Positions 1 to 43,900 of a DNA stretch of 64,000 bases are shown here, one piece after another. The position numbers were made by a program, and so were the translations under genes. Source of the stretch: Nymphaea colorata (taxonomy: Eukaryota; Streptophyta; Magnoliopsida; Nymphaeales; Nymphaeaceae); contig NC_045138.2 of assembly GCF_008831285.2 (NCBI RefSeq), positions 35,703,115-35,767,114 on the forward strand, in the 5' to 3' direction. Under the pieces are notes generated by a model that saw only the letters and a list, made by a program, of their open reading frames with translations, searched no databases and was not told where the DNA came from. Numbering within the stretch: the first letter of the stretch is position 1; the number at the start of each line of letters is the position of its first letter.

Positions 1-1760
1 GGACCTTCAGCAACGGTTAATTGATCATGAGATTTGTATGGTGTCTGTAATCTCAAGGCTTCTTTACTTCACCTTTTAGTTTGCGGGTAAGTACTAAAAA
101 GTAAAACTACTAAATTGCATCAGGGCTTGTCCTGAATTTAGGGGTTGCGAGGAAGCCAGAAGTCAGCCCGAATTTCGACCTTCAGTTTCAGGAATAGATT
201 GAATAGAAAATCTTAGAAAATTGTCATTGTTGTTTGATTGAATTTTCAGAACTATCCTTAAAACTTTGGACAAGATGAATGCTCGGTGATATCCTCTAAT
301 TAAAAAACAGCTTAATCTTGAACATCAGAGATGAATATGTTCTCTTCCTACTTTCTCCTTACGTTTATCTTGCTCTATTGTGATATAATAAGCTGGCTCA
401 GCAAACACTAGTGAGGGGATTTAGGTGATATTGCCTTCCAAGAGGGGATTTAAGATCTCTGGTCATTTAGAGCATATAATCAGAAATACGTGAGGCTAGA
501 GAGTGTAGGCGTATAATCAACTAAGGAACGAGCTGATATTCGTACATTCGTTTGACTGATTGCAGTAGATGAAATGCAATAAAGGTGTCTAAGTTGGTGC
601 AATGCGGTTCTTAGATTAAAAAATTTGTGCTTGCTGGTTGTCATCTAGCATTCTCACTTTTGAGCAACATTGAAATTGCAGGAAGGAGGAGCCTCTATGA
701 AACCAGTGAGGACAACTTCTTTTCAGCAGTCATGCCAAACTTCAGCATGTCTCAGTAATTTTCTTTCTCTTATACCTGATTGTTTAAGAATACTTATCGA
801 CACTCCCACCCAAATGACAGGCTGAAAAATGATTTTCCATTTTCAGAACCTATTGTCAAACATGCGTTTGCTTTTTATTATTACAGTCACTATTTTCTTC
901 TTGTGTTTTTGTCGTTGTCTTCTCTATGCAAAATTTGGTCATGATATGAGGAATTTTTTTAGGGGTGAAAATATTTTGAGCAATCTTGCAACTCGTGCTT
1001 GTGGTTGGTGCTCACTTTTATTTTGGTGGACTATTCTTTAGCATTGTCACACCCTCACTTCTAAGGGCTCTTTTCTTTCCAAACTTACAGTTGCTTTTGA
1101 AGTATATGTTCCTACCTTGCTGTTATCTTTTTTTGTCAACTGATTAGGCCAACTACTCCAAAGCTTACTTTTGGGGAAAAAAAACCTTTTCGTTCCAACT
1201 ATTTGTGGAACCCTTGTTCACTAAGAAGCCCATATGTACCAAGGACTTGTAGCCTCTAGGCTTTTCCTTTTTTGTAGAGGACCTTATAGGAGAGTGTGAT
1301 GGAGCCTACTCTTTTACATCCCTCCAAAACCCATTACACGGGTCACTCCAGTTTCACAAACACCCTATCTATGGGGAAAAGAGAGACTCCTTATCTGGAC
1401 AATGTATCATTTGATGTCGGCAGTTTTCCAAAAGTTTTTAGCCCTATATTTGTTCAAAAGGACTTTCGTGCACAATGGTATACCTTCTTTTTTTCTTAAG
1501 TATTTTTTTAAGGAGAAGGATGAAGTTTGAAGCTTTTGTTGTCAGTCAACGAGAGGTAAAACTGGAAAGATCCTCGATATGAGCAGTGTGGGAGAATCTG
1601 ATGACACTGAGGAAGTCAAAGATTAGAAAAAGCTATTAGCCTTAGCAATCAAACATCTGCAAGGGTTTAGCAGGAGAATGCTATGAGAATGAAGCCCTAG
1701 CGTCCTGTAAAATCTTGGCAGGTAGCAAAATGAGAGTTGAGGGTGAGCTCGGGGCAAGTG
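1..1760. other. No gene recognised; AT-rich sequence left of the duplicated block
   Basis: Open frames here are short (about 70 codons at most) and show no family motif. A stretch near 682-760 follows a TTGCAG-type acceptor and reads openly for a few dozen codons, so a terminal exon of a gene lying to the left is possible, but I cannot name it. This segment has no second copy elsewhere in the window, unlike the DNA that follows it. Confidence 0.4.
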
Positions 1761-4177
1761 TAGTCGTTCCTCTGGGTCAATACGTGAGAGTACTGAGAAG
1801 GCGCATAGCTGATTTGCGTCTCTCTTGCGAAATCATGTGACCTATGAACTTTTGTCTAGTCGTGGCCTGAAGCCTTCTGAACTCGAGCAAGTAAGTCCGA
1901 GGGGTGTTCTACACCTGGTACCCTAAGGCCAACTGGTCTGGGAGCTGCCGGCCCAAAGCTCGCTACACGGGTTCAGTAGAAAGCCCAATAGGCACGATAT
2001 TGCACAAGACAAAACTACACAACCACCAAAATGGTGGAGCTTCGTAGTAGCCTTTGGGGTGGTGAGGTATTTCCCTCAAAGGTGAAGGGTGGCTCAGTTA
2101 GAAAAAGAAAAAGAAAAAGAAAAAGAGCAAAATCAAAAGAAAAATCTAAAATCAAAAGCAGAAAGAAAAAAAAAAAAGTGCCTGCCAAGAGATGAAAGAC
2201 ATGAAGGCCGAACTCTGAAGTATTGAATGAAAAAATCTTTTTCAGATGGATGATTCTAGGCTAATATTTGTTCCTCTTCTATGACTTTCTATGAAATTGA
2301 GGACGATTCCTCTATGCTCATGTTTTGGAAATGGAAAGAAATCCCTTGAAGAGACTGGACAACATTGGTGCGAGATGAATCCAGACACTTAATGAATACT
2401 TCTGGTAAATGAAGGCCATATCTCCTGCACACTACGAGCACTCAAAGCCTATAGGGCAAAGAATTGAAAATTTTTTGAGCTATTTTAAAGACAAATCTTT
2501 GCAAAGGAAAACTTGACATCTTTTGCTACATTTGTGGCTCCTGGTTATTGGAGAAATCTAGTTCCCTTAGGACTTGATGGATGCAGCCCTTTCATTTCCT
2601 TCTATGCTAGTCCATTCACAGAATGGATGAAACATCTCAAAATTAGTCTACTCATGCTAAGTGTGATGTCTTCCCCCGCTGTTCCCTAGATTTACCTCTT
2701 GCGCTTTCCCTCTAAATTTGATCTCCAACTCTATTTTCAGCTAAGCTTCAACTTCTTCCCTCCTGCTGTATGTTGGAATCCCAGCCATGGAGTTGTCCCC
2801 TTAGGTCCTGTTTTTAGTGTCGCCCATCTTTAAACCCTAATTTTACTAGTTGTTTTCTAAACTAGGTTAACTCATGTTTTAATCTTATTTAAAATCTAGC
2901 CTTCGGCCTTTGTTTTCAAATTTCATGCGTCATGTAGATCTGGCCATCTAGGCTCCACGCATGCATGGATCCAATAATGTAAAGGTTTTTAAAGTATATT
3001 TTACATATTCTTAAAACACTAAGGTGGGTTTGTGGTACTTGCCAGGTCTTGTGATCTATTTTGTTATATAAGGTTAATAACTACATATGGTGTTGTTTGA
3101 TGAATTTGTGGAGATTGATGAATTTGTTTAAGTGCTACTTGAGCATTTAGTGAAACAGCAGAGCACTCGCTGTCTTTTTTGTGCATGTACTTTGCAAAAA
3201 TATACTTCTCAGTCTTATGAAGCAACAAGGCCCAAGTATCATGTACAACTAAAGCTGTTATGCACATTTAGTTGCTTTTCAACTCGCATCGGTTACTTCT
3301 TTCATTTTGTTTTCAGGATTGTTTTTCCTGCCATGAAGTTTCATCAAATCTTGGAATATCAATTATTTATTCTTCAAGATAGCGGAAAATGTAGCATGAA
3401 GTCCTTGAGTTGGTTGGAATTTTTCTAAACATGGTTGTTGTATTTCATCCGTTGATTGTTCATAATAGCAGTTATGAGTCACGTGTTTCCTCATTTTTTA
3501 CTTTTAACATCTAAAAGTGGTGAGATCTTTTTTGCAAATGCCACAGGGTATCATAAGTCATCATCGTTCTTCAGTTTCGTTTTTAATTTGTCTCTATTTT
3601 TCCTTAAGATCGAATGGCACTACTCTATTTTATTGTCTTAAATTTTCCACTCTCATTGCATGGCCTTGTGAGGTGCCTGCTTTAAGTGGAATAACAAGTT
3701 CTTCTTCAATACGAGAAGCTCAAAACGGAGTTACCATTCCAATGAATCTTTAGTTGCAGGCAATGTGATTTTTTAGTGGCTTGAACTTGACATTTGAAAT
3801 AGGTGGCATTCTTGTCTTGAGGGCTGAAGGTCGTGGGAGGGCCTCATGTACCTGCCATATTCCATTGCTGTTGAAAGCTATGAATTTGGGCCTATAGGTG
3901 ATTGTGATTAGTATTTTCAATTTAGGTTATCATGTATCTTTTAGGGACCTAGTATGAGGGAGCTAACCAAAAGACCTCTGAAACATTCTGATTGAATCTC
4001 CACAAATTGAAAGCACGTTCCTTTTCACAATCTAGTTTTTAACTAAAGAGGCACAAACGTGTTCAAATTTTTTGAATGGATCCTGGATAATTGAACAAAC
4101 ACAGGTCCTTATGCTGCTGTAAAACTGTGGGTGCTAACTAAACAAAATGCTGGTTTCTTTGGCAATATTTTCTGTAG

Positions 4178-6634
4178 ATTCTGTATTATAAATTTTTGCT
4201 GCACAACTTATTGTTGGAAAGTGTCAATGTCCAAGGATGTCATGCACGATCTACTGTCAACACCATCTATTTCTACTAGCACACCTGACATAGAAATTTC
4301 AAGTCTTGTGGAGTGTTGTAGCACCATTCAGAAAGCAGAAGTGTATAAGATGTAAGTGCTTAAGATATCTCATGGATCTTGCCTTTCTCATGTCTTCTGC
4401 ACACTAATTGTTGGTTAACCAAGTTATTGCTGCTAACGTAAAATTCTCATTTTGTTGTTTCCACTTTCTTTTACAAATCCATTGCATTTATTTGATATCC
4501 TTAGTGTCATTTCTTGTACTTTGAGCTCCCATGCTGGTCCTAATGTCCCTTCTTGTACTTTGAGCTATCATGTTGGTCCCGTTGTCGCCTACTGTACCTG
4601 GAAAGAGGAGAGTACCACTTCCACCTTTTATGGCAGGAGTAAGAAAGTTACTCTGAAAATAACTCCATGAGGACTGCATTTTTAGCCAAATTCTCTCTTT
4701 CTTTCTTGTTACATCTCTTCTCTATCCAGGTAAAGAAAATATCTGTACAAACTTCAAATTGTCTGAGATAAGCCTATGATGCTGATCCAAATTCTGCCCA
4801 TAGCTGCAGTTTGCACTTTACACTCTAAAAGTCTATGAAACTAGGACTGCTACTAGTGTGAACAAGCGGATCTCAAGGAAGTGCACATCCATTTTAAACA
4901 TTGCATTTAGTTCCCCTTTTGCTGATTTAGTTTCACAATAGGATCAATAGAATGCCTTTTCTCCTTGATATGCTAGGTCCTCTCAATGTACTTTTTTGGT
5001 TGTTCACTTGAATGTTGAAAAACGAGGCCATTACTGTGCTCATATGAAATTCTCAAAATTTTGGAAATTTTTGAACTTCGGTGGTGGGTTAAGGTAGCAT
5101 GTTGATAATTGTTTCTAGATTTGTGTATCATTCTTTAGGTAAACAGTGGCTCGCCTATTAATATTGTTTTTATCTTCAGTGTTCTCCCTAATTAAAATTC
5201 AAATGTATTAGTAACGCTCGTTGTATCTGGTTTTCTTGATGTATCAAACTCATAAACTGATTTTGTAATCAACCATTCTCTCATAAGTCTCCTTTTGCTA
5301 GGTTGAATTTCCTATTCAGGATGCTGTTAAATTATACTCAGAGAAACTAAAATTGATCAGCCTTGGTGAATCTCTCATTCTTTTGGCTTTATTTTCAAAT
5401 TTTGTGTTTGTTGGTAGCATGTCAGCTTGGCCAGGTGACTTGTATGCTTGCTCTGCCGAAGGCATGCTGAGTTTAGCTCTTCAAACTCCGGTGAAGTTTA
5501 TTGCTTTCAATAATTAAAGGAAAAGGAAAAATGCCAATATTGCTAATACGAAGTCTTGCATGTCTCATCTAGATTTTGGCTGGTGTCCTAATTATCTAAA
5601 TGCCCTGGCTGTGGTGAAGTCCAGATGAAGAAGCATGGTGATCCAGACGTCAATTACCATACCTAGAGCTATGGATTGTTTTTAGTTAGGGGCATATGTA
5701 TTGTTCACATTTTTTGAATGCCAAATGCCCTTTGATTTATTGGTTATATTTGGTCATATTTAAGGATATGCTCACATTTGTTGTTAAAAGGGCTCGTCTT
5801 TCTTTCTGGCACAAGTTTGAACGAAAATCGAAGCCTGGATCTTCCTAGGAGCAGTGACGAAACCCTTTACAGTGCACACCTATAAAATCTGCTTGTGCAA
5901 GAAACGACATCCATGGAGCTTCAAATGTGGTGTTATGCTGGATAGCCAAGGCCCACTCCCGTTTCCACTGTAACAACCGCCCTGGGTCTAAACGTTGCTG
6001 GGCTTTGCTAAGTGATACAACTAAAAACAGGCCAAAAGCAAACAACAAATTAAGTTAAATAATTGATCTGCTTATGAAATTAAAATTACATACTTCAATG
6101 TCTAAAGCTTTGAGGGCAAAAAGAAAGAGCCTGAGGTTACTGCTGTTGAAGTTGTTTTCTTGTGTAGAAAGGGAAAAAAAATCAGCCTATATGTGGCGGT
6201 GGATGGGCATGATAAGAAACATTGCATTTTCTATCCTTCATCGCCAACGAATTCCTATATTCATCGATAGCCCCTCCATGTGAGTGTCATTGAAGTTAGA
6301 ACTCTAGTTACTTTTCTTGTGAATATCTTGTGGATAATAAAATTAAATATTTGAATCAGTATATTTCCAGTTCACACACAACCACACGTGCAGTCATGCA
6401 CGTTGCTCTAATTATCTTCTCCAATGCTTCTTTCCAAGACTTCAAATGAGGAGAGGTTTCAGGATGCCAGGTTTTTTGCATGCTTTCTACTTCTTCATGA
6501 ACTTAAAAAAATTGCTTTTTGCAGGGAGTTGAGCGTTATTGATCATCTTGAGGAGGTCTTATCATTTATTAGTTTATCATTGACCAGCCATCCTGAAGTC
6601 AGCCGATCCCCTCCTGGGATTGCACCTTTTTCAG
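4178..6634 (+). pseudogene. Exon-like fragments of an unrecognised gene (copy A)
   Basis: Three stretches look like exons. The first, 4178-4351, follows a TTTTCTGTAG acceptor, is open and ends at a GTAAGT donor; its best part contains the string LLSTPSISTSTPDIEIS. The second, 5302-5365, lies between TTTTGCTAG and a GTGAAT donor and reads EFPIQDAVKLYSEKLK. The third, 6525-6634, lies between TTTTTGCAG and GTAAAT and contains SLTSHPEVSRSPPGIAPFS. A preceding stretch ending at 6468 joins the third in phase. No complete gene can be assembled and I do not recognise the protein. Copy A also carries single-base losses relative to copy B that break frames nearby. It could be a decayed gene or an unannotated one with poor sequence. 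Confidence 0.4.
4511..4588. repeat. Short tandem duplication, ~40-bp unit x2
   Basis: The string CTTGTACTTTGAGCT, followed by a similar 20 bp containing TGGTCC, occurs twice about 40 bp apart. The same pair is present in copy B near 12431-12508. Confidence 0.6.
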
Positions 6635-6660
6635 GTAAATATTCTATCCAAAACAGATAC
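5150..6660 (+). repeat. Internal sub-repeat A1, paralogous to 7486-9540
   Basis: From the words CGCCTATTAATATTG onward this segment matches 7486-9540 along its length with perhaps 10% divergence, well above the A/B difference, so this internal duplication is older than the A/B pair. Relative to the later copy, A1 lacks two blocks, one before CTGGCTGTGGTG (near 5605) and one just after GATGAAGAAGCA (near 5633). The second missing block is flanked by the microhomology GCA. The corresponding pair in copy B is about 13070-14590 and 15415-17440. Confidence 0.75.
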
Positions 6661-8144
6661 ATATTGGATAATACTCACTTGTGTGGTTTCCACTTCTGAG
6701 TTCAGTTATTATAGGACTTAATGGACATGTATGTGCTTGTCGTGTAACTATTGTCTTTTTGCTGCTTGGGACTAATAATGCTCATCTTACTGTACTTCCC
6801 ACTCGTTTTTCTTCATTTAATTTGAATGAAAAGCATGGTAATGCTATAAATCAATTATTTGATGCTACATAAGAGTCTGTACGTAAACACATCATATGTA
6901 GTAAACTAATTATTAGGTATTGATGCCAAATAAAAGCAAAAACCTTCAACACTTCAAGACAGAAAACAAAAAGCAACAACTGAATCAAATAAGCCCCGAT
7001 GCAAACTGCTGGGAGAGTCAGCAACAAAAATGAAAAGCAAAGAAAAAAAAAAGATAAAACAACAAAGCAAAAAGAGGAGGAGGGACAACATAGGCTGGAT
7101 GAGAGAAGTATAATGCAGGTTGCAAGTGGATTCGCTACAATCCAATATTGTTGTCACGCCATAGAATAGGAGGTGTGGATGACAAAACCCCATGATCTTT
7201 GAGATGTGATTCCAACAGTTGTTGCACAGTCTTCGTCTTCTTGTTTCTTCTCTCTCCAAAATAAGCGAATAAAGGGGAAGAAGAAAAAGAAGAGGAGGAG
7301 GAAATATACTCCCCTCACGTAAAAACCAATTAGTAATGCTTTCTATGGTGATACTTGTGCTTTCTTAATGCACCAAATGGTCCTCACTGCTGGTGTTAAT
7401 AATTTTGATTGTTGCTTGTGGTTTAAATTTAAGGCACATTTGCAACATGGAAATCTTGTGTCCAATGCTTTCATATCTGCATTTGTATCGCCTATTAATA
7501 TTGTCTTATCTTCCGGTGTTCTCCGAAATTTAAAATTCAAATGTATTAGTAATGCTCTTTGTATCTGGTTTCCGTGATGTATCAACTATCAAGTATCAAC
7601 TCAGAAACTGATTTGTAATCGACATTCCTCTCATAAGTCTCCTTTTGCTAGGTGAATTTCTTATTGGGGATGCTGTTAAATTATACTCAGAGAATCTAAA
7701 ATTGATCAGCCTAGGTGAATCTCTCATTCTTTTGGCTTTATTTCAAATTTTGTGTTCATAGGTAGCATGCTCTGAATACATAGTAGTGTTCAGGCTTGGC
7801 CATGTGACTTATATGCTTGCTCTGCCGAAGGCATGCTTGAATTAGCTCATCAAACTCCGGTGAAGTTTTCTTGCTTTCATAATTAAAGGAAAAGGAAAAT
7901 ATTCCATATTTCTAATCTAGCATGTCTCGTCTAGTTTTGGCTAGTGTCCTAATTATCTAAATGCCCCTCATATTCTATCTCAGGGTGATGTACTTTAATC
8001 TGTCCATGTAATTTTTAACTCATGATCAACCGATGCCAATCAGAACCAGCTTATTGAATTGCGCAACAGAGATCCAGTTTAACTTCTTGATAAGGTTAAT
8101 TTCTCTCCAGTTTCTTTGCAGATATAAATAATTATGTTTCTTGC

Positions 8145-8341
8145 CATTCTTAATCTCGTTGATTTTTTTTCTTATTAAAGTAACCTGTTTCTTTCTGTTC
8201 TATTTTAAATTCTTCATTCATTTTCTTTCCCCCACCTGTGTCATTCTTAATCTCGTTGATTTTTTTTTCTTATTAAAGTGACCTTGTTTCTTTCTGGTCT
8301 ATTTTAAATTCTTCATTCATTTTCTTTCCCCCTCCTGTGGC
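8145..8341. repeat. 97-bp tandem duplication
   Basis: A unit beginning CATTCTTAATCTCGTTGATT and ending in a CCCCC-CTGTG stretch occurs twice in tandem with only a few differences. Copy B carries the same pair at about 16088-16280. Confidence 0.85.
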
Positions 8342-8689
8342 GGGTTGCTGCTGATTTGCTTGGGAGCACATCAGGAAACTTATTGAAGAAAAAGTTGCAG
8401 CTGCGCTGGCTGTGGTGAAGTCCAGATGAAGAAGCAAGTAGGTTCATTGTGCTTGCTGCATGTAACTTAGTTCCTTAGTATATGAAGGCACCCTTTATTA
8501 TTCCACATGGCATATGTATATGTGCATAACTGCATATGTGAATCTGATAGCTGTTCCAGCTTGTATGGATGAGTACATGCCGAGATTATTGTTTATTGCA
8601 TAGTGTTCATGCTTATTATATAAATCTTTTTCTGCTTTCATAAATAATAGGAAGGAGGTCCAAAACTTTGCATCTCTTAAGAAGAAAGA

Positions 8690-8790
8690 AGATGGCAGCA
8701 GTTGATAGCTAGGCATAATTCATGTGTCTTTATGATGAAGATGGCAGCAGTTGATAGCTAGACATAATTCATGTGTCTTTCTGATGCAGT
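8690..8790. repeat. ~50-bp tandem duplication
   Basis: The unit GATGGCAGCAGTTGATAGCT plus about 30 further bases occurs twice in direct succession. The same duplication is present in copy B at about 16627-16725. Confidence 0.85.
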
Positions 8791-9563
8791 GAGTCTGAAG
8801 TATTTACGATATTAACAAGTTTATCATGTCCTTTTAAAGTGGCAAATTTTAAAACGGCATGGTGGTCCAGACGTCAATTACAATACCTAGAGCTATGGAT
8901 TGTTTTTAGTTAAGGACATATGTATTGGTCTATTTTTTGAATACCAGATGCCATTTGATTTATTTATATTTTGGTCACATTTAAAGATATTCTCACATTT
9001 GAAGCCTGGGATCTTTCTAGGAGCAGTGACAAAACCCTTTACAGTGCACACCTATAAAATCTGCTTGTGCAAGAAACGACATCCATGGAGTTTCAAATGT
9101 GGTGTTCTGCTGATAGCCAAGGCCCACTCCCGTTTCCACTGTGACAACCGCCTTGGGTATAAATGTTGCTGGGTTTTGCTAAGTGATACACCTAAAAACA
9201 GGCCAAAAGCGAACAACAAATTAAGTTAAATAATTGATCTGCTTATGAAATTCCAGTTCACACACAACCACACGTGCAGTCATGCACATTGCTCTAATTA
9301 CCTTCTCCATGCTTCTTTCCAAGACTTCAAATGAAGAAGAGAGGTTTCCAGGATACCAGGTTTTTTGCATGCTTTCTGCTTCTTAATGATCCTAAAAAAA
9401 TTGCTTTTGCAGGGATTGAGCTTTATTGATCATCTTGAGGAGGTCTTATGATTTGTTAGTTTATCATTGACCAGCCATACTGAAGTCAGCCGATTCCCTT
9501 TGGGATTGCACCTTTTAGGTAAATATTCTATCAAAAACACATATATATTTGATATGGGTGTTT

Positions 9564-9592
9564 ACATGTGTGTGTGTGTGTGTGTTTGTGTT
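9564..9592. repeat. (TG)n microsatellite next to the gap
   Basis: An imperfect TG repeat interrupted by TTTG ends about 13 bp before the N run. It may have contributed to the assembly break. Confidence 0.85.
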
Positions 9593-9605
9593 TGTGCCTT
9601 GGTCA

Positions 9606-9705
9606 NNNNNNNNNNNNNNNNNNNNNNNNNNNNNNNNNNNNNNNNNNNNNNNNNNNNNNNNNNNNNNNNNNNNNNNNNNNNNNNNNNNNNNNNNNNNNNN
9701 NNNNN
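9606..9705. other. Assembly gap, exactly 100 N
   Basis: The run of N is exactly 100 bases, the conventional placeholder for a gap of unknown size. Open reading frames drawn across it are meaningless. Confidence 0.99.
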
Positions 9706-12700
9706 TAGTCGTTCCTCTGGGTCAATACGTAGAGATTACTGAAAGGCGCATAGCTGATTTGCGTCTCTCTTGCGAATCATGACCTATGAACTTTTGTCTA
9801 GTCGTGGCCTGAAAGCCTTCTGAACTCGAGCAAGTAAGTCCGAGGGGTGTTCTACACCTGGTACCCTAAGGCCAACTGGTCTGGGAGCTGCCGGCCCAAA
9901 GCTCGCTACACGGGTTCAGTAGAAAGCCCAATAGGCACGATATTGCACAAGACAAAACTACACAACCACCAAAATGGTGGAGCTTCGTAGTAGCCTTGGG
10001 GTGGTGAGGTATTTCCTCAAAGGTGAAGGGTGGCTCAGTTAGAAAAGAAAAAGAAAAAGAAAGAGCAAAATCAAAAGAAAATCTAAAATCAAAGCAGAAA
10101 GAAAAAAAAAAAGTGCCTGCAAGAATGAAAGACATGAAGGCCGAACTCTGAAGTATTGAATGAAAAATCTTTTTCAGATGGATGATTCTAGGCTAATATT
10201 TGTTCCTCTTCTATGACTTTCTATGAAATTGAGGACGATTCCTCTATGCTCATGTTTTGGAAATGGAAAGAAATCCCTTGAAGAGACTGGACAACATTGG
10301 TGCGAGATGAATCCAGACACTTAATGAATACTTCTGGTAAATGAAGGCCATATCTCCTGCACACTACGAGCACTCAAAGCCTATAGGGCAAAGAATTGAA
10401 AATTTTTTGAGCTATTTTAAAGACAAATCTTTGCAAAGGAAAACTTGACATCTTTTGCTACATTTGTGGCTCCTGGTTATTGGAGAAATCTAGTTCCCTT
10501 AGGACTTGATGGATGCAGCCCTTTCATTTCCTTCTATGCTAGTCCATTCACAGAATGGATGAAACATCTCAAAATTAGTCTACTCATGCTAAGTGTGATG
10601 TCTTCCCCCGCTGTTCCCTAGATTTACCTCTTGCGCTTTCCCTCTAAATTTGATCTCCAACTCTATTTTCAGCTAAGCTTCAACTTCTTCCCTCCTGCTG
10701 TATGTTGGAATCCCAGCCATGGAGTTGTCCCTTAGGTCCTGTTTTTAGTGTCGCCCATCTTTAACCCTAATTTTACTAGTTGTTTTCTAAACTAGGTTAA
10801 CTCATGTTTAATCTTATTTAAAATCTAGCCTCGGCCTTTGTTTTCAAATTTCATGCGTCATGTAGATCTGGCCATCTAGGCTCCACGCATGCATGGATCC
10901 AATAATGTAAAGGTTTTTAAAGTATATTTTACATATTCTTAAAACACTAAGGTGGGTTTGTGGTACTTGCCAGGTCTTGTGATCTATTTTGTTATATAAG
11001 GTTAATAACTACATATGGTGTTGTTTGATGAATTTGTGGAGATTGATGAATTTGTTTAAGTGCTACTTGAGCATTTAGTGAAACAGCAGAGCACTCGCTG
11101 TCTTTTTTGTGCATGTACTTTGCAAAAATATACTTCTCAGTCTTATGAAGCAACAAGGCCCAAGTATCATGTACAACTAAAGCTGTTATGCACATTTAGT
11201 TGCTTTTCAACTCGCATCGGTTACTTCTTTCATTTTGTTTTCAGGATTGTTTTTCCTGCATGAAGTTTCATCAAATCTTGGAATATCAATTATTTATTCT
11301 TCAAGATAGCGGAAATGTAGCATGAAGTCCTTGAGTTGGTTGGAATTTTTCTAAACATGGTTGTTGTATTTCATCCGTTGATTGTTCATAATAGCAGTTA
11401 TGAGTCACGTGTTTCCTCATTTTTTACTTTTAACATCTAAAAGTGGTGAGATCTTTTTTGCAAATGCCACAGGGTATCATAAGTCATCATCGTTCTTCAG
11501 TTTCGTTTTTAATTTGTCTCTATTTTCCTTAAGATCGAATGGCACTACTCTATTTTATTGTCTTAATTTTCACTCTCATTGCATGGCCTTGTGAGGTGCC
11601 TGCTTTAAGTGGAATAACAAGTTCTTCTTCAATACGAGAAGCTCAAAACGGAGTTACCATTCCAATGAATCTTTAGTTGCAGGCAATGTGATTTTTTAGT
11701 GGCTTGAACTTGACATTGAAATAGGTGGCATTCTTGTCTTGAGGGCTGAAGGTCGTGGGAGGGCCTCATGTACCTGCCATATTCCATTGCTGTTGAAAGC
11801 TATGAATTTGGGCCTATAGGTGATTGTGATTAGTATTTTCAATTTAGGTTATCATGTATCTTTTAGGGACCTAGTATGAGGAGCTAACCAAAAGACCTCT
11901 GAAACATTCTGATTGAATCTCCACAAATTGAAAGCACGTTCCTTTTCACAATCTAGTTTTAACTAAAGAGGCACAAACGTGTTCAAATTTTTTGAATGGA
12001 TCCTGGATAATTGAACAAACACAGGTCCTTATGCTGCTGTAAAACTGTGGGTGCTAACTAAACAAAATGCTGGTTTCTTTGGCAATATTTTCTGTAGATT
12101 CTGTATTATAAATTTTTGCTGCACAACTTATTGTTGGAAAGTGTCAATGTCCAAGGATGTCATGCACGATCTACTGTCAACACCATCTATTTCTACTAGC
12201 ACACCTGACATAGAAATTTCAAGTCTTGTGGAGTGTTGTAGCACCATTCAGAAAGCAGAAGTGTATAAGATGTAAGTGCTTAAGATATCTCATGGATCTT
12301 GCCTTTCTCATGTCTTCTGCACACTAATTGTTGGTTAACCAAGTTATTGCTGCTAACGTAAAATTCTCATTTTGTTGTTTCCACTTTCTTTTACAAATCC
12401 ATTGCATTTATTTGATATCCTTAGTGTCATTTCTTGTACTTTGAGCTCCCATGCTGGTCCTAATGTCCCTTCTTGTACTTTGAGCTATCATGTTGGTCCC
12501 GTTGTCGCCTACTGTACCTGGAAAGAGGAGAGTACCACTTCCACCTTTTATGGCAGGAGTAAGAAAGTTACTCTGAAATAACTCCATGAGGACTGCATTT
12601 TTAGCCAAATTCTCTCTTTCTTTCTTGTTACATCTCTTCTCTATCCAGGTAAAGAAAATATCTGTACAAACTTCAAATTGTCTGAGATAAGCCTATGATG

Positions 12701-15700
12701 CTGATCCAAATTCTGCCCATAGCTGCAGTTTGCACTTTACACTCTAAAAGTCTATGAAACTAGGACTGCTACTAGTGTGAACAAGCGGATCTCAAGGAAG
12801 TGCACATCCATTTTAAACATTGCATTTAGTTCCCCTTTTGCTGATTTAGTTTCACAATAGGATCAATAGAATGCCTTTTCTCCTTGATATGCTAGGTCCT
12901 CTCAATGTACTTTTTTGGTTGTTCACTTGAATGTTGAAAAACGAGGCCATTACTGTGCTCATATGAAATTCTCAAAATTTTGGAAATTTTTGAACTTCGG
13001 TGGTGGGTTAAGGTAGCATGTTGATAATTGTTTCTAGATTTGTGTATCATTCTTTAGGTAAACAGTGGCTCGCCTATTAATATTGTTTTTATCTTCAGTG
13101 TTCTCCCTAATTTAAAATTCAAATGTATTAGTAACGCTCGTTGTATCTGGTTTTCTTGATGTATCAAACTCATAAACTGATTTTGTAATCAACCATTCTC
13201 TCATAAGTCTCCTTTTTGCTAGGTTGAATTTCCTATTCAGGATGCTGTTAAATTATACTCAGAGAAACTAAAATTGATCAGCCTTGGTGAATCTCTCATT
13301 CTTTTGGCTTTATTTTCAAATTTTGTGTTTGTTGGTAGCATGTCAGGCTTGGCCAGGTGACTTGTATGCTTGCTCTGCCGAAGGCATGCTTGAGTTTAGC
13401 TCTTCAAACTCCGGTGAAGTTTTATTGCTTTCAATAATTAAAGGAAAAGGAAAATGCCAATATTGCTAATACGAAGTCTTGCATGTCTCATCTAGATTTT
13501 GGCTGGTGTCCTAATTATCTAAATGCCCTGGCTGTGGTGAAGTCCAGATGAAGAAGCATGGTGATCCAGACGTCAATTACCATACCTAGAGCTATGGATT
13601 GTTTTTAGTTAGGGGCATATGTATTGTTCACATTTTTTGAATGCCAAATGCCCTTTGATTTATTGGTTATATTTTGGTCATATTTAAGGATATGCTCACA
13701 TTTGTTGTTAAAAGGGCTCGTCCTTTCTTTCTGGCACAAGTTTGAACGAAAATCGAAGCCTGGATCTTCCTAGGAGCAGTGACGAAACCCTTTACAGTGC
13801 ACACCTATAAAATCTGCTTGTGCAAGAAACGACATCCATGGAGCTTCAAATGTGGTGTTATGCTGGATAGCCAAGGCCCACTCCTGTTTCCACTGTAACA
13901 ACCGCCCTGGGTCTAAACGTTGCTGGGCTTTGCTAAGTGATACAACTAAAAACAGGCCAAAAGCAAACAACAAATTAAGTTAAATAATTGATCTGCTTAT
14001 GAAATTAAAATTACATACTTCAATGTCTAAAGCTTTGAGGGCAAAAAAGAAAGAGCCTGAGGTTACTGCTGTTGAAGTTGTTTTCTTGTGTAGAAAGGGG
14101 AAAAAAAATCAGCCTATATGTGGCGGTGGATGGGCATGATAAGAAACATTGCATTTTCTATCCTTCATCGCCAACGAATTCCTATATTCATCGATAGCCC
14201 CTCCATGTGAGTGTCATTGAAGTTAGAACTCTAGTTACTTTTCTTGTGAATATCTTGTGGATAATAAAAATTAAATATTTGAATCAGTATATTTCCAGTT
14301 CACACACAACCACACGTGCAGCCATGCACGTTGCTCTAATTATCTTCTCCAATGCTTCTTTCCAAGACTTCAAATGAGGAGAGGTTTCAGGATGCCAGGT
14401 TTTTTGCATGCTTTCTACTTCTTCATGAACTTAAAAAAATTGCTTTTTGCAGGGAGTTGAGCGTTATTGATCATCTTGAGGAGGTCTTATCATTTATTAG
14501 TTTATCATTGACCAGCCATCCTGAAGTCAGCCGATCCCCTCCTGGGATTGCACCTTTTTCAGGTAAATATTCTATCCAAAACAGGTACATATTGGATAAT
14601 ACTCACTTGTGTGGTTTCCACTTCTGAGTTCAGTTATTATAGGACTTAATGGACATGTATGTGCTTGTCGTGTAACTATTGTCTGCTTGGGACTAATAAT
14701 GCTCATCTTACTGTACTTCCCACTCGTTTTTCTTCATTTAATTTGAATGAAAAGCATGGTAATGCTATAAATCAATTATTTGATGCTACATAAGAGTCTG
14801 TACGTAAACACATCATATGTAGTAAACTAATTATTAGGTATTTGATGCCAAATAAAAGCAAAAACCTTCAACACTTCAAGACAGAAAACAAAAAGCAACA
14901 ACTGAATCAAATAAGCCCCCGATGCAAACTGCTGGGAGAGTCAGCAACAAAAAATGAAAAGCAAAGAAAAAAAAAGATTAAAACAACAAAGCAAAAAGAG
15001 GAGGAGGGACAACATAGGCTGGATGAGAGAAGTATAACGCAGGTTGCAAGTGGATTCGCTACAATCCAATATTGTTGTCACGCCATAGAATAGGAGGTGT
15101 GGATGACAAAACCCCATGATCTTTGAGATGTGATTCCAACAGTTGTTGCACAGTCTTCGTCTTCTTGTTTCTTCTCTCTCCAAAATAAGCGAATAAAGGG
15201 GAAGAAGAAAAAGAAGAGGAGGAGGAAATATACTCCCCCTCACGTAAAAACCAATTAGTAATGCTTTCTATGGTGATACTTGTGCTTTCTTAATGCACCA
15301 AATGGTCCTCACTGCTGGTGTTAATAATTTTGATTTGTTGCTTGTGGTTTTAAATTTAAGGCACATTTGCAACATGGAAATCTTGTGTCCAATGCTTTCA
15401 TATCTGCATTTGTATCGCCTATTAATATTGTCTTATCTTCCGGTGTTCTCCGAAATTTAAAATTCAAATGTATTAGTAATGCTCTTTGTATCTGGTTTCC
15501 GTGATGTATCAACTATCAAGTATCAACTCAGAAACTGATTTTGTAATCGACATTCCTCTCATAAGTCTCCTTTTGCTAGGTTGAATTTCTTATTGGGGAT
15601 GCTGTTAAATTATACTCAGAGAATCTAAAATTGATCAGCCTAGGTGAATCTCTCATTCTTTTGGCTTTATTTTCAAATTTTGTGTTCATAGGTAGCATGC

Positions 15701-17440
15701 TCTGAATACATAGTAGTGTTCAGGCTTGGCCATGTGACTTATATGCTTGCTCTGCCGAAGGCATGCTTGAATTTAGCTCATCAAACTCCGGTGAAGTTTT
15801 CTTGCTTTCAATAATTAAAGGAAAAGGAAAATATTCCAATATTTCTAATCTAGCATGTCTCGTCTAGATTTTGGCTAGTGTCCTAATTATCTAAATGCCC
15901 CTCATATTCTATCTCAGGGTGATGTACTTTGAATCTGTCCATGTAATTTTTTAACTCATCTGATCAACCGATGCCAATCAGAACCAGCTTATTGAATTGC
16001 GAACAACAGAGATCCAGTGTTAACTTCTTGATAAGGTTAATTTCTTCTCCAGTTTCTTTGCAGATATAAATAATTATGTTTCTTGCCATTCTTAATCTCG
16101 TTGATTTTTTTTTCTTATTAAAGTAACCTGTTTCTTTATGTTCTAGTTTAAATTCTTCATTCATTTTCTTTCCCCCACCTGTGTCATTCTTAATCTCGTT
16201 GATTTTTTTTCTTATTAAAGTGACCTGTTTCTTTCTGGTCTATTTTAAATTCTTCATTCATTTTCTTTCCCCCTCCTGTGGCGGGTTGCTGCTGATTTGC
16301 TTCGGGAGCACATCAGGAAACTTATTGAAGAAAAAGTTGCAGCTGCGCTGGCTGTGGTGAAGTCCAGATGAAGAAGCAAGTAGGTTCATTGTGCTTGCTG
16401 CATGTAACTTAGTTCCTTAGTATATGAAGGCACCCTTTATTATTCCACATGGCATATGTGCATAACTGCATATGTGAATCTGATAGCTGTTCCAGCTTGT
16501 ATGGATGAGTACATGCCGAGATTATTGTTTATTGCATAGTGTTCATGCTTATTATATAAATCTTTTTCTGCTTTCATAAATAATAGGAAGGAGGTCCAAA
16601 ACTTTGCATCTCTTAAGAAGAAAGAAGATGGCAGCAGTTGATAGCTAGGCATAATTCATGTGTCTTTATGATGAAGATGGCAGCAGTTGATAGCTAGACA
16701 TAATTCATGTGTCTTTCTGATGCAGGTCTGAAGTATTTACGATATTAACAAGTTTATCATGTCCTTTTAAAGTGGCAAATTTTAAAACGGCATGGTGGTC
16801 CAGACGTCAATTACAATACCTAGAGCTATGGATTGTTTTTAGTTAAGGACATATGTATTGGTCATATTTTTTGAATACCAGATGCCATTTGATTTATTGG
16901 TTATATTTTGGTCACATTTAAAGATATTCTCACATTTGAAGCCGGGATCTTTCTAGGAGCAGTGACAAAACCCTTTACAGTGCACACCTATAAAATCTGC
17001 TTGTGCAAGAAACGACATCCATGGAGTTTCAAATGTGGTGTTCTGCTGCTTAACCAAGGCCCACTCCCATTTCCACTGTGACAACCGCCTTGGGTATAAA
17101 TGTTGCTGGGTTTTGCTAAGTGATACACCTAAAAACAGGCCAAAAGCGAACAACAAATTAAGTTAAATAATTGATCTGCTTATGAAATTCCAGTTCACAC
17201 ACAACCACACGTGCAGTCATGCACATTGCTCTAATTACCTTCTCCAATGCTTCTTTCCAAGACTTCAAATGAGAAGAGAGGTTTCCAGGATACCAGGTTT
17301 TTTGCATGCTTTCTGCTTCTTAATGATCCTAAAAAAATTGCTTTTTGCAGGGAGCTGAGCTTTATTGATCATCTTGAGGAGGTCTTATGATTTGTTAGTT
17401 TATCATTGACCAGCCATACTGAAGTCAGCCGATTCCCTTT
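9706..17440 (+). repeat. Copy B of the ~7.75-kb direct repeat (right contig start)
   Basis: This copy begins immediately after the N run with sequence equal to position 1761 and continues in register to about 17440, where the shared text ends after CCGATTCCCTTT and the two sides diverge. Its first 2-3 kb are short of single bases compared with copy A, for example in the A-rich tract near 10041-10110. Its last 4 kb are the cleaner version. It also carries substitutions absent from copy A, for example a C/T change near 13884, so the two copies are not simply one sequence read twice. Confidence 0.9.
12098..14562 (+). pseudogene. Exon-like fragments of an unrecognised gene (copy B)
   Basis: These match the copy A fragments. 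Exon-like segments lie at 12098-12271, 13223-13286 and 14453-14562, each bounded by good acceptor and donor sequences. The last is in phase with an upstream stretch ending at 14396 that contains SKTSNEERFQDAR. A further open stretch near 14022-14108 begins MSKALRAKKKEPEV; copy A has lost one A in the same place and is out of frame, so copy B is the better template. No family assignment is possible from reading alone. The pieces are most likely remnants of, or widely spaced exons from, one plant gene. Confidence 0.4.
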
Positions 17441-18830
17441 TCATTGCTTCCTCTTCAAATACTTCTATATAATTAATTAGATATCTTAATTTTGTCACGA
17501 CTACATTATGATAATATTTTTTATTATTTACCTGCTTCCTTTGTACCCATGGACTCCTAAGAGAATTTCATATTATATTGATATTCTTCATCAATTATAT
17601 AGTTAGTTGCCATAATGTGTAACATATTCTTCTTATCTTGTGTCCCTATACTAAAAACTAATATAAGGATGTCAACATTGACTTTAGAGTGAAATTTGTG
17701 TTGGCGAGCTTTTTTCTGCTTATTTCAAGAGCTAGCTGTATTTGCTGGCATGACACAAATGTTTAATTATAAAATCTATTATTTCACATAAAGGCTTCTC
17801 ATGATTAAAATATTTTACCCATTTTGAAACCTTTATTTTAATTATTCTAATACTTGCAATACTTTCTTCAAGGCTTACAATTATACTGCACTTGTAATAC
17901 CATTAAAAGGGGCCTGTGAAAGGGGCCTGTGATGCATCTGAATCGTAAATTGTATCTGAAGCAAATGACTGAAACATGGATCCATCACTCCAAAATTTGG
18001 GAATGTTATTAGTGTTAAAGTCACATAAGTTAGATATTCATTTTTACAGTGCTTTTGCTTAACTACTTATTTTTTAACATTGAAGGGAGTCATGGATATT
18101 ATTTAATGGAAATTCCAAATTTTGTAGTGAACTTGTAAACAACAATCAAGGAGCGGTAATCCCTGGAACAATCAGTGAGTTGTGGAATATATATTTTCTT
18201 TTACAAGTATTCACACCATAATTGCAAATTTTTCTTTTACTCCATGTTAATTGATTTCACCTATATTTCGTGCAGACTTCATGTTCCTTATGTTAGTTGC
18301 TCTATTGGATTTGTGGCCTTCATGTTTTTGTGCATAATATTTATTAATGATGTTTATAGTTGTTGTTTGGTGAGTAATGCTTCAGTTCATGCATTCCTAT
18401 ATCATGTGAAACACTGGTTATCAATGATGCACTTCCTACATCATTGAAACACTAGCATGATTTCTGTTGGCATGCTTTATGATGCAGCAACTCCATCACA
18501 TATAACATTTAGTGATGCATTCTATGCATAATAAAAGTTTGTTTTCATGCAGTGACAATCTTAGATTCTATGTTTTCTTTTAATTTTGGATGGTGTAGAT
18601 CTTTTCCTTGTTTTTGAAAGTATTTGTTTAATCATGTGAATTCGATGTGTTTGTGTAACGTTTAGTATATTTTTTTTCTTGTTTCAAACTATAACACAAG
18701 CTAACTTTAGGTATAATTTCTAGAGGGAAATAAGTTATCACATGTTTATGTAAATTTTTATTTGAGGAGCGAAATGCAGTCCAAGTCACAACACAAAAGT
18801 TGCTAAATGCTCACAACAGGTAGATGCTCA
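17441..18830. other. AT-rich intergenic DNA, no feature seen
   Basis: Open frames are short and hydrophobic by composition. I see no coding family, RNA gene or terminal repeat. The sequence after 17440 is unique in the window. Confidence 0.5.
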
Positions 18831-22980: not shown

Positions 22981-25047
22981 ATGCGGTTGAAGAAGCACAA
23001 GCGAAACCGGAAGGTGGTGCGATTTTACTCAACTCGCTATGGCTTCAGGGAGCCGTTCAAGGTACTGTGCGATGGCACCTTCCTTCATCACCTCGTGCTT
23101 AACAAGCTCGGTTCTCCTCAGGAAGTACTGTCATCCCTTCTTTCTGCTCGGACTATTCTCTTTACTACGAGGTAGCTACTGTCTTTTCCCATTCTTCTAT
23201 TTTCTTTAATTCTTTTGGGTTTTTACCAATCTATCACTAAACATTTTGTGACTAGTGCATCGTCTTAAAACCGGTATTCTTGTTCTTGTTCAGGTGTATT
23301 ATTTCAGAGCTTAAGCGACTTGGAGAATCCTTTTCTGAATCGCTAAAGGGCGCACTTAGCCTCACAATAACGAAGTTTGTCGCTCTTCATTGTCTTCTCT
23401 TTTATCTTGTTTCTTATGTTTTCCCCTTCCCCTTATTGAAGTAAATGATGGTATATGTTTTTAATACAGATGTGAGCATCCGGATAGAGTATCTGCTTCC
23501 AGCTGCATTGAGGCAATTGTAAAGGACAAAAATTCGGACCACTTCTTTGTTGCAAGCCAAGATGCAGATCTCCGCAAGAAGTTTCGGGAGGTTTTCTCTC
23601 TCTTCCTTCCTTTCCTTCTTTATAGAAACTAGTGCTCGTATATTTATTTTGGTTGGCATTTATCTTAAGATGATGATGGTGGTTGTAGTCTACTTGAGCA
23701 AAGGAACTTAATAGATACAGACTGTGAGATGCCTTCCTATGGTAATACATTTAGCAAACAAGTGTAGACCATGGGTCTAACCATAATGCATATGCCCAAC
23801 ATCTGTTGTTCTTCCCTCAGTGGTCCTACTAGTAGTGGGTTTCTAACTTTCTCCTTACATTATGTTTCCATGAGGTAAACATTACCGTCATTGAATTGTG
23901 ACTGTGCTTCATACGTGAAAATTATCTTCGTTTTTTATCTTCTTTGGAAGTTTATGCTGTATTAGCCTTCACTTAAAAGTGAGTTGCTTGCTGATTTCCT
24001 GTTGCCATGCAGATACCAGGTGTTCCTGCAATATATGCAATTAGAAATTCTATGTTCCTTGATCAACCTTCAGCTTGTCATCTCCAGTTTGTGAAAACAG
24101 CTGAAGAGGAGCGCCTACACATGAAGGAATTGGAAGTAGATATGATAAAGGAAAGGGAAAAGAAGAGACTTGCTGACCAAGCTGCAGCAGATGGTACTGA
24201 AAGTTTAGGAGATGTCACAAAAGGAAGGGGTGTACGCAGCATGCATACAAGTTGGACATTTAATCAAAAAGATAAATCTATGTTCAAAAGAAAAAGAGCA
24301 AAGGTTAGTAGTTTGGTTGCATGTTCTTCTTGCCTGGTTCTGTTTCTGATACATATTTCATTAAAGCAGCAACTTCCTTTCTATCCTAAATTTTTCTAAA
24401 TATGTGGACTTCAAATTATTAAGGGCCTTTATTGTAATCAGCAATTCCATCCAAGCATTTCTTCTGTGTATACTCCGTTTGAGGACTACAGTATTTAATA
24501 GGTTCTGAATGAAACTCAAAGGACAAGTTTTGGTTAGTCATGAAGTTGCTTTTTCTAAAGCACTTATGGTGGAACGGTCCAAGAGAATGTTGCAAATGAG
24601 CATTCCACAGACTAGGATGTCCTTTATAGACCCATCATATAATTAAAATTACAAAATATCCGTTCATTATTAGGTGGTTGATTTTTTATGAACCAAAGCA
24701 GGTGCTTATTTTTCAATCAGCAAGTCAGGCTTGCTGTTGGTACTTTCTCACATGGGATTGGCCAATTGTGTTTCTTTCAATGAAAGCAACTTTTTTGGTG
24801 TTTATTCTGGTAATTTGACAGTTTATGTACTTGAGTACAGTTTGTTGGTTCCTAACTTCCTATTATGTCTCAGGTTGATGTAGAGTCGCAAAGATTGCTT
24901 TACCAGTTATATCTTAACTGGCATTGAATTTTGCTCTGCAATGTTCCTTTAGAATTTTATGTGTATAATTTATACTTATTCTTGTAGGGCCCAAACCCAT
25001 TATCATGCAAAAAGAAGAAGAATTCAAAAGGTCCTGTTGCTGCTTGA
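22981..25047 (+). CDS. UTP23: rRNA-processing protein UTP23 homologue (five exons)
   Basis: Inferred function is that of UTP23, a nucleolar PIN-domain factor of the small-subunit processome that helps early pre-rRNA processing. Coding exons are 22981-23171, 23294-23374, 23470-23590, 24013-24303 and 24988-25047. All junctions are GT-AG, phases agree, and the sum is 744 nt (247 residues). Family signatures are the basic N-terminus MRLKKHKRNRKVVRFY, then FREPFKVLCDGTF, RLGESF across exons 1-2, FFVASQDADLRKKF in exon 3 and VKTAEEERLHM in exon 4. The C-terminus GPNPLSCKKKK is also typical. The PIN region occupies roughly residues 20-165 and the tail is lysine-rich. The start follows an acceptor at 22950, so a leader intron (about 22051-22950) is likely. 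The tandem duplication at 25029 copies the stop codon. Length fits plant UTP23 proteins (about 240-280 residues as I recall). Confidence 0.93.
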
Positions 25048-25485
25048 TCAACTGGTGAGTGAATTCATGTGTAACGGTTCTTCTGAAGTAGTATTTTTGG
25101 ATAATTGAATTCTTGAAGGCTTTTTGAAGTCAGTAGAAATGATCACTTTTCGTGTATGATTCATAATTCATGTCTCTTGGTGTATATTTTTTAAGTTATA
25201 TACAAGTCTGACCCAAGTGCTCAAAACTGGAAATAAGCAATATCAAAATTCATATTTAGGTCCTGTTGCTGCTTGATCAACTGGAGTGAATTCATGTGTA
25301 ACGGTTCTTCTGAAGTAGTATTTTTGGATAATTGAATTCTTGAAGGCTTTTTGAAGTCGGTAGAAATGATCACTTTTCGTGTATGATTCATAATTCATGT
25401 CTCTTGGTGTATATTTTTTAAGTTATATACAAGTTTGACCCAAGTGCTCAAAACTGGAAATAAGCAATATCAAAATTCATATTTA
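25029..25485 (+). repeat. 229-bp tandem duplication covering the UTP23 stop codon and 3' flank
   Basis: 25029-25257 and 25258-25485 are near-identical; I see a 2-bp deletion (GT) and two or three substitutions. The unit begins AGGTCCTGTTGCTGCTTGAT, so the last codons and the stop of UTP23 are repeated downstream. A third, partial and more diverged piece (ACAAGTTTGATCC to GAGCAAT) lies near 25556-25603. The new junction creates a TTTAG|GTCC string that could act as a cryptic splice acceptor. Confidence 0.93.
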
Positions 25486-40900: not shown

Positions 40901-43900
40901 TGCTTCTTCTCCCGACGGTTTCAGTGCTCTCACGCCTACTGCATCTTCTGGCTGTCGTCCCCAACGTCTGCAGCTTCTCACGTTCTGGTCAGCGTCGTCT
41001 AGCATCGCCGGTCTGAGGTGCCCATTCTGTTCCTGTTTTTCCTGCACCATCCAACGCCGTCTACTTTATCCAGTGCCACCAACGTCGCTGGTTTCTTCCA
41101 GAGCTGCCCGTTCTCTCTGCCCAGTGCCGTCAGTGCTACTGTCTGCTCTGCCCAGTGTCGCCTGCCCTCCTAGCACTGTCTGCTCTGCTTTCTTGTGTTG
41201 CCATCGACTGAACAATCTTGCCGTTAACACCACAGAAGTTTGCTCGCCGCCTCCTTCGTCGTGTCTCTGCCGTTGCCAGGTTTCTCCACCGTGTACCCTG
41301 TTTTCTTTGTGTCTGCCACCTCTTTACAGTTGCTCTCTTGTTTTGTCGTGTGCATTCGTTCTCTTGTTGCTGTGTTGAACCTTGATAATGGCAGAGTCAA
41401 CTTCATCTACTGTCAATATGGGCCAGGCTGATGTTGTGGCCTCTAGAACTGAAAATGTCCCAATTCAAGTCACTACCATTCGCCTCACCAAGGAAAATTA
41501 CCTTCAATGGTCTCCTGCCATCACTATGGGGATCGTTAGTCGGGGCCGAATCGCCTATGTAAATGGGAGGAAGGTTGAACCTGTTGAGACTAGTGCTTCC
41601 TGGGGCACTTGGTTTCTTGAGGACAACCAAGTTAAAACTTGGATTGTCAATTATGTATCCTTCGATATTCAAATCCTCATCCTTCGTAAGAGGACCACGA
41701 GAGATATGTGGGTTATCTTAGAACACATGTATGGCCAGAAGAAGAAAATTGTTCGAGTGTATCAACTGATGAAAGATGTCTATGCACTTCGGCAAGGGGA
41801 TCTCTTTGTGGCAGACTTTTATGCAGCGTTGAAGTTCAAATGGGAGGAACTTGACTACTATTCTGATGGTACTTGGAATTGCCCCCAAGACCAAGTACGT
41901 CTTGTAGCCAAAGAATGGAAAAATAGGGTATTCTTATTCTTAGCGGGATTGAATGATGACTTTGAAGGTATAAGGAGTCAAATCCTTAATTCAGAAGAAT
42001 TGGTTAGTATTGAAGATGTCCACTCCCGTGTTGAAGCTGAAGAGCCAAGGCGTCTAATTATAAATGGGAGAAAGGGGGATCATACCTCACATAACGATCA
42101 TACCTCACATAACGAAAGGTCTGCTTTGGTTAGCTGTGCTCCTATGGGAGTTGCTTGACCTACTCGAAAATGTACGCACTACAAGAAAACAGGTCATACC
42201 ATGGAGTTTTGTTAGGACCTGCATCCTGAAAAGAAGAATAGTAGGGGGAGGTCTTCTAGTGGGAAGAAACTTGCTTCTGATGTTGCCAACTCTAGTGGAG
42301 AGAAAGCTTATATCTCTGCTGAACAGATTTGTGAGCTTCGTGCTTATCTGAGTTGGATTGATGTTGGTCAGGTCGAAGCGGTAGATGATGTGAAAGTTAA
42401 CCATGCTCTTGTGATTTCTGGAGAAAAAGGTAATTCTTGTATGGGAGAATGGATTGTTGACAGTGGTGCCATCCACCACATGACTGACAATCCTAAGCTC
42501 TTCCATGAGTATAAGTTCTCATCAAGAAAGGAACGTATTTCTCTTGCCGATGGTTCCTTTATCTATGTAGCGGGAAAAGGGAGTCTTTCTTTGTTAAACA
42601 AATTTTTAGTGCATGGTGCCTTACATGTTCCTCATCTTCCTTTGAATCTTTTGTCTGTCAGCAAGATTACAAAGGAGTTGAATTGTGAACTCATATTTTC
42701 TGCAAATCGTTGTGTTTTGCAGGACTTGGTGACAGGGAAGAGGATTGGGATTGGTTTGGTGTCTGAAGGCTTATATCGACTTCCCATCCGTGTGGCCACA
42801 ATTCTTATGACAGCAGTTAGCAGGATAAAGAAGAAGAGAAAAGATTGTCTTCAGTTACTTTTGTATTGGCATGAACGCATTGGGCATCTCCCTTTTGGGA
42901 TTTTGAAACAGTTATTTCCTGATTTATGTTCTAGTTTGGACATATCTATGTTATCTTGTGATGTTTGTCAGTTTGCTAAACATGTTAGGGCTTCATACCT
43001 TGTTTCTAACAGTCGTGCTAATGAAGTTTTTTTCTTGATTCATTGTGATGTGTGGGGGCCTTCAGGAATTAATATTCGTTGTGGTTTTTAGTATTTTATA
43101 ACCTTTATGGATGATTACTCAAGGAGTACCTTTGTTTACCTGTTAAAAGACTGTAGTGAAGTGCCTCATGTCATAGAGACCTTCATTCTTCTTGTGGAGA
43201 CCTAATATGGTAGTTCTGTTAAGACCTTTCGGTCTGATAAGGCTCGTGAGTATGTATGTCAAGCTGTTGAAGATTTCTTTCGAAAAAGGGGGATTGTTTA
43301 TGAAACATCCTGTAGTTATACCCCTCCACAAAATGGGGTAACTGAGAGGAAAAATCGTCAGTTACTCAATGTCACCAGGGCCCTCTTGTTTCAAAGGAAT
43401 CTTCCAAAACAATATTGGGGTGATGCGGTTCTCACTAGTGCATATCTGATTAATCGTATGCCTAGTCGTGTATTAAATGGGCAGACTCCCCACTCTATAC
43501 TTCCAGGGAGTCGTCAACCCTTTTTCCTTCCACCTCGTGTCTTTGGATGTGTTTGCTTTATTCATGATCACAGTCCTCATGTTAAAAAACTTGATCCGAG
43601 GTCAATTAAGGGTGTTTTTGTTGGATATTCTCCTACTCAAAAGGGGTATAAGTGTTTTGATCCTACCACTGGTCGAGTTTATGTTACCAAGGATGTCACT
43701 TTCTTGGAACATGTCTCTTACTTTTGTGAGAATCCTCTTCAGTTGGAGAGGTCTATGTCAAGGGAAGAGTATTCTTTGGGTCAAGAAATTCAATTTACAT
43801 ATTTCTTGGAGTACAGGCGAGAAGAGAGTCCACCAATTGTTGAGGTGCTTGAACATGAGAGTTCGTACTCTAGGCGAAGAGTTCGTACAGTAAGGTGACT

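Follow-up and report, generated by a model that had tools for sequence, protein, structure and literature searches.

The question raised by this locus of Nymphaea colorata is what is represented by two nearly identical blocks standing on either side of an assembly gap: a short tandem duplication, a single stretch of DNA left unmerged at two contig ends, or the ends of different units of a larger repeat. We analysed a window of 64,000 nucleotides (C1:35703115-35767114) and searched the assembly to which it belongs (407.8 Mb, 783 contigs). According to the BLAST alignment, the left block (copy A, 1761-9501) and the right one (copy B, 9706-17440) share 98.651% identity over 7,785 columns, with 11 mismatches, 75 gap openings and 94 gap columns, and in this respect the original prediction of near-identical blocks around a 100-N gap was correct. 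The features are as follows, in window positions unless a C1 coordinate is given:

1..9605, plus strand: the right end of contig K (9,605 bases), in the second copy of the tandem repeat of 33.9 kb (K matched to itself)
1761..9501, plus strand: copy A, the end of P in contig K, with single-base losses toward the contig end (alignments)
9502..9605, plus strand: the tail of A, equal to the opening 104 bases of segment t, by which the repeat continues in the interior (104/104 identity)
9606..9705, no strand: scaffold gap of 100 N at the repeat fork (N run in the window)
9706..17440, plus strand: copy B, the start of the right-hand contig, putatively the end of P in the terminal unit, with single-base losses near its start (alignments)
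17441..18600, plus strand: the start of RF, the right flank, whose edge is the edge of a dispersed repeat (genome matches)
Repeat unit, 33.9 kb: Q with a bZIP gene, P with an SQD1 gene and a module that is also arrayed on C12, and t (1.7 kb)
C1:35680428: the t-Q junction

Elsewhere in the window we noticed two 227-bp tandem copies of 98% identity (25029-25485), a Copia-type gag frame (Retrotran_gag_2, 41382-42158) and, on the minus strand, a frame of 787 amino acids with DUF7653 (61416-63779).

The larger structure is visible in contig K (C1:35657586-35712719), which comprises 55,134 bases without N, reads P-t-Q-P', and is separated by a second 100-N gap (C1:35657486-35657585) from the piece on its left, J. 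Within K, BLAST aligns C1:35657586-35678834 with 35691481-35712719 at 99.573% identity (21,287 columns, 5 mismatches, 86 of the columns gapped). Compared pairwise in 22 one-kb bins, P and P' are free of substitutions up to bin 19, and 14 raw substitutions fall in the remaining three bins. J ends in 9.2 kb of Q, which is 99.88% identical to the interior Q of K. The upstream twin of A, here called U (C1:35670960-35678834), lies 33.9 kb upstream of A in K, and copy B is 99.254% identical to it over C1:35670960-35678730. Given about 19 kb without a substitution, the tandem repeat of K would reflect either a very recent duplication or a loop made by the assembly, and a misassembly of contig K is possible.

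By placing A and B as it does, the scaffold draws a genuine tandem duplication of 7.75 kb, its copies separated by about 0.2 kb, but the repeat found here is 33.9 kb long, A's own continuation is t and not B, and B starts at the first base after an assembly gap. We consider this reading extremely unlikely, and the original prediction, too, had favoured two unmerged contig ends over it; probably the short duplication as drawn is not real, and the larger repeat probably is.

What follows P is central to the interpretation. The tail of A (9502-9605) is identical in 104 of 104 positions to C1:35678731-35678834, the continuation of U, and this match rules out our earlier candidate explanation of the tail as haplotype noise. 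The observation that about 105 bp at the end of A do not match the DNA after 17440 thus stands (for 104 bp), but it was left unexplained, and these bases are accounted for as the start of t. The last 226 bases of A have 8 other full-length matches in the genome at 89-99%, namely one on C1 33.9 kb upstream, one at C1:12.99 Mb, one on C163 and five in tandem on C12, while the shorter matches, including those of C595 and B, end at one shared point. The t continuation also follows the copies on C12 and C163 (17,000 of the 52,444 bases of C163 were compared, and the copies at C1:12.99-13.01 Mb are known from genome-search matches only). The same P-RF junction is present in two contigs, that of B and C595, and four matches to the RF edge (C3:21067898, C9:24981147, C12:16840552, C10:2957158) start at query position 141, which is window position 17440. 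P has two exits, t in the interior (A, U) and RF as the terminal flank (B, C595), and the gap at 9606-9705 sits at this fork, since K stops 104 bases past it and the contig of B starts 7.7 kb before it. At a repeat boundary a contig characteristically breaks just past the point where two repeat copies diverge; the end of K 104 bases past the divergence resembles such a break, from which the present case differs in that the gap is written as 100 N and the ends are left overlapping by 7.7 kb.

As a separate observation, the opening 2.1 kb of the window has four copies at C1:12997968-13014983, spaced about 5 kb apart, and these form a separate short-period array of the module found in P.

We propose, with a probability of roughly one half, that A and B are overlapping ends of different repeat units and that the gap lies at a fork of the larger tandem repeat. 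In such an array the assembly would fork at P, which exits either to t and the next unit or to RF. K, reading P-t-Q-P', would have halted 104 bases into t, and the next contig would open 7.7 kb before the RF exit. A would then close an interior unit, which exits to t, and B the terminal unit, which exits to RF; both would be error-prone because consensus quality drops at contig ends, and the look of a short duplication would arise from two units of one repeat set side by side. With one more unit boundary between A and B, the gap of 100 N would stand for about 26 kb or more.

The differences between the copies are mostly losses. In the MAFFT pairwise alignment of A with B there are 64 gap events, 52 of them of one base; bases are missing in A in 36 events (32 of one base) and in B in 28 (20 of one base). 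Before window position 5060 fall 1 of the 36 A-losses and 20 of the 28 B-losses (Fisher p = 2.8e-9 for a cut picked after viewing the data; Mann-Whitney p = 1.7e-4). The polarity that had been described, with B short near its start and A near its end, is confirmed by these counts, and the crossover expected near 4.7-5.2 kb was located between 4656 and 5192. The placement of the losses in homopolymers applies to many of them, which fall in runs of 2-5, but some lie in no run. Three of the eight late apparent B-losses (8512, 8790, 9334) are in fact gains in A, as the other copies side with B.

To assign the losses, A, B, U, C595 and four C12 units were aligned in eight rows, and a missing base was counted as private if at least 6 of the 7 other rows carry it. 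Per kilobase, A has 0, 0, 0, 6, 2, 9, 11 and 6 private missing bases, B has 12, 9, 4, 1, 6, 2, 0 and 3, and U has 0 throughout. As private losses rise toward the contig ends, and U is free of them, the single-base losses of A and B are consensus errors rather than mutations, and the original view of the blocks as two contig ends with end-of-contig errors holds. A similar pattern appears in the larger comparison, where P is short of 26 bases in its first 6 kb, at the start of K, and P' of 42 in its last ~5 kb, at the end of K; another 12 bases are missing from P in bins 20-21, opposite surplus or misaligned bases of A.

The SQD1 gene gives an independent sign that the losses are errors. This sulfolipid gene lies in P, and in P' a frame of 367 codons gives a match to the solved structure of SQD1 (E = 2.4e-157). 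The stretch has three DNA matches in the assembly, in P, P' and C595; the frame is open over 367 codons in each of the latter two and is broken by single-base losses in the P beside the start of K, where the longest frame has 152 codons. Q contains an exon resembling bZIP (Pfam bZIP_1: 21.6 bits, short of the curated cut-off of 27.6; E = 2.4e-4), which might be labelled ABI5-like. Its stretch has 17 DNA matches, of which two are long (J, K) and 15 cover the first 131 bases only, at the end of t; a search of the assembly with the SQD1 and bZIP stretches found no further long DNA match beyond P, P', C595, J and K.

From the polarity of the losses it had been concluded that the blocks are the same DNA left unmerged, and this step is not supported. 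The right end of J (C1:35657485) lacks 10 bases, 9 of them in the last ~3.2 kb, where the interior copy in K lacks 0, and our search found no match of this end to another contig end but only to the interior of K. Since an end that matches no contig end decays likewise, polarity cannot show that A equals B. Decay was found at five of the six contig ends of the locus (J right, K left, K right, that is A, B left, and the RF end of C595), and the Q end of C595 shows none, with 0 bases missing relative to P' in the first 6 kb. C595 also has interior losses 10-12 kb from its Q end (23 in two bins), where the multi-copy module begins, so that losses follow repeated sequence too and not contig ends alone. 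Lower quality tracks contig ends and repeats, whatever lies beyond.

Alleles are more informative for the choice between the readings. We left out substitutions adjoining gaps, positions 8195 and 8203, at which A, B and C595 have three states inside a 99-bp tandem repeat, and the alignment-dependent positions 9415-9416. Four events in the cleaner part of the overlap (6394, 6657, 7 bases at 6755, and 7114) have A agreeing with U and B differing, which favours different units, although three are B-private, with C595 and the C12 copies agreeing with A, and could be B errors. At 7114 and 9132 B agrees with C595, and at 9132, where A agrees with U, this again points to different units. Clean substitutions count in the same direction: over 1761-6360 there are 0 between A and U and 6 between A and B, and over 6361-9501 there are 4 and 7. 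The argument is weakened in two ways, as the first 6 fall mainly in the error-rich start of B, and as A is equally close to C12b (4) and to U (4) in the second interval. In its last kilobase A does not carry the alleles private to U (9125, 9184, 9351); at 9113-9116 its states resemble those of C12, as they do in part at 8514, and this kilobase may come from a third real copy or from a mix of reads.

The strongest competitor, which we regard as quite possible but somewhat less probable than our preferred reading, is a two-unit array, LF-Q-P-t-Q-P'-RF, in which A and B represent one and the same part of the second P, with reads of another copy used for no more than the final part of A. It corresponds to the original view, with the tail of A accounted for. 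It needs the fewest copies, fits the scaffold order J-K-B and the polarised errors, and agrees with the mixed alleles in A's last kilobase and with positions 4141, 4317, 4968, 5040 and 5364, where A, U and B share one state and C595 and C12b another. Against it stand the four events in which A sides with U (albeit three are B-private) and the tail of A, which takes the t exit over its full 104 bases. The assignment to different units in its turn needs at least three copies of P, or a t exit read from another copy or haplotype at the end of K, and a two-unit array is simpler. We nevertheless lean towards A and B being different physical units, as the repeat lies inside a gap-free contig, nearly free of substitutions, the tail and the alleles join A to U, and the RF exit is present in two contigs; this reading takes K to be correctly assembled.

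A mixture of haplotypes, with A and B coming from homologous chromosomes that carry differing arrays and were placed in series, would find some support in C595, an unplaced contig (C595:1-22619) that reads Q-end, P, RF, has its own alleles within the module and would be a further version of P-RF. Its SQD1 is intact within about 3.3 kb of the Q end of the contig. Yet in one-kb bins 1-10 C595 has no substitution relative to P or P', and it is identical to P' over 2,801 bases of SQD1, and little heterozygosity is seen outside the module. Judging from these comparisons, C595 is probably a redundant or haplotype contig, and we find a mixture as the source of A and B improbable.

The array on C12 (C12:14890001-14980000) repeats in tandem the module common to P and includes two 100-N gaps. 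At one of them (14961235-14961334) the flanking contig ends overlap by ~3.65 kb, with 12 differences between the two and 7 and 9 to other units; that these overlapping ends are not mutual nearest copies is a further point in favour of different units at our gap. No clear end decay was seen at the two ends of this gap; in one bin 25 bases are missing, and for 22 of them the count of another unit shows a counterpart, which may be read as a shared deletion. The spacing at this overlap was rejected as evidence of false duplication, as merging any homologous overlap in a periodic array restores the period; nor do substitutions pair the two ends. In the assembly, direct repeats 33.9 kb long lie within one gap-free contig of C1, and C12 has others of about 13.4-18.5 kb that share a module with them. 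In this the system is like a segmental tandem array; it is unlike one in that some C12 spacings hold gaps and one holds an overlap.

Contig-boundary duplications that are false and differ in consensus quality are termed homotype false duplications by the Vertebrate Genomes Project (PMC8081667, PMC9516828). Our case is alike in that two nearly identical blocks meet at a contig boundary, are parted by a gap (100 N, 9606-9705) and are unequal in consensus quality; errors toward the contig ends lower this quality, and single-base losses near the start of K also break SQD1 there. It differs in that a larger repeat, with two exits, contains both A and B, and the observations lean to different units and not to one under-collapsed sequence: the continuations differ and four events set B apart (three of them B-private), with the end of A being noisy.

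The A/B gap reflects nothing more unusual than the difficulty of assembling a repeat array. Polarised losses of single bases indicate a contig end, and alone they are no proof that two ends are the same DNA. We may suggest, tentatively and with some doubt, that the array is a very young tandem amplification of at least three 33.9-kb units, partly hidden by the gap, which would have multiplied SQD1 and the bZIP stretch. Gene counts here may mislead: a repeat unit might be lost if A and B were merged, a false short duplication is counted if they are left as they stand, and of the two SQD1 copies on C1 one has its frame broken by apparent end-of-contig errors.
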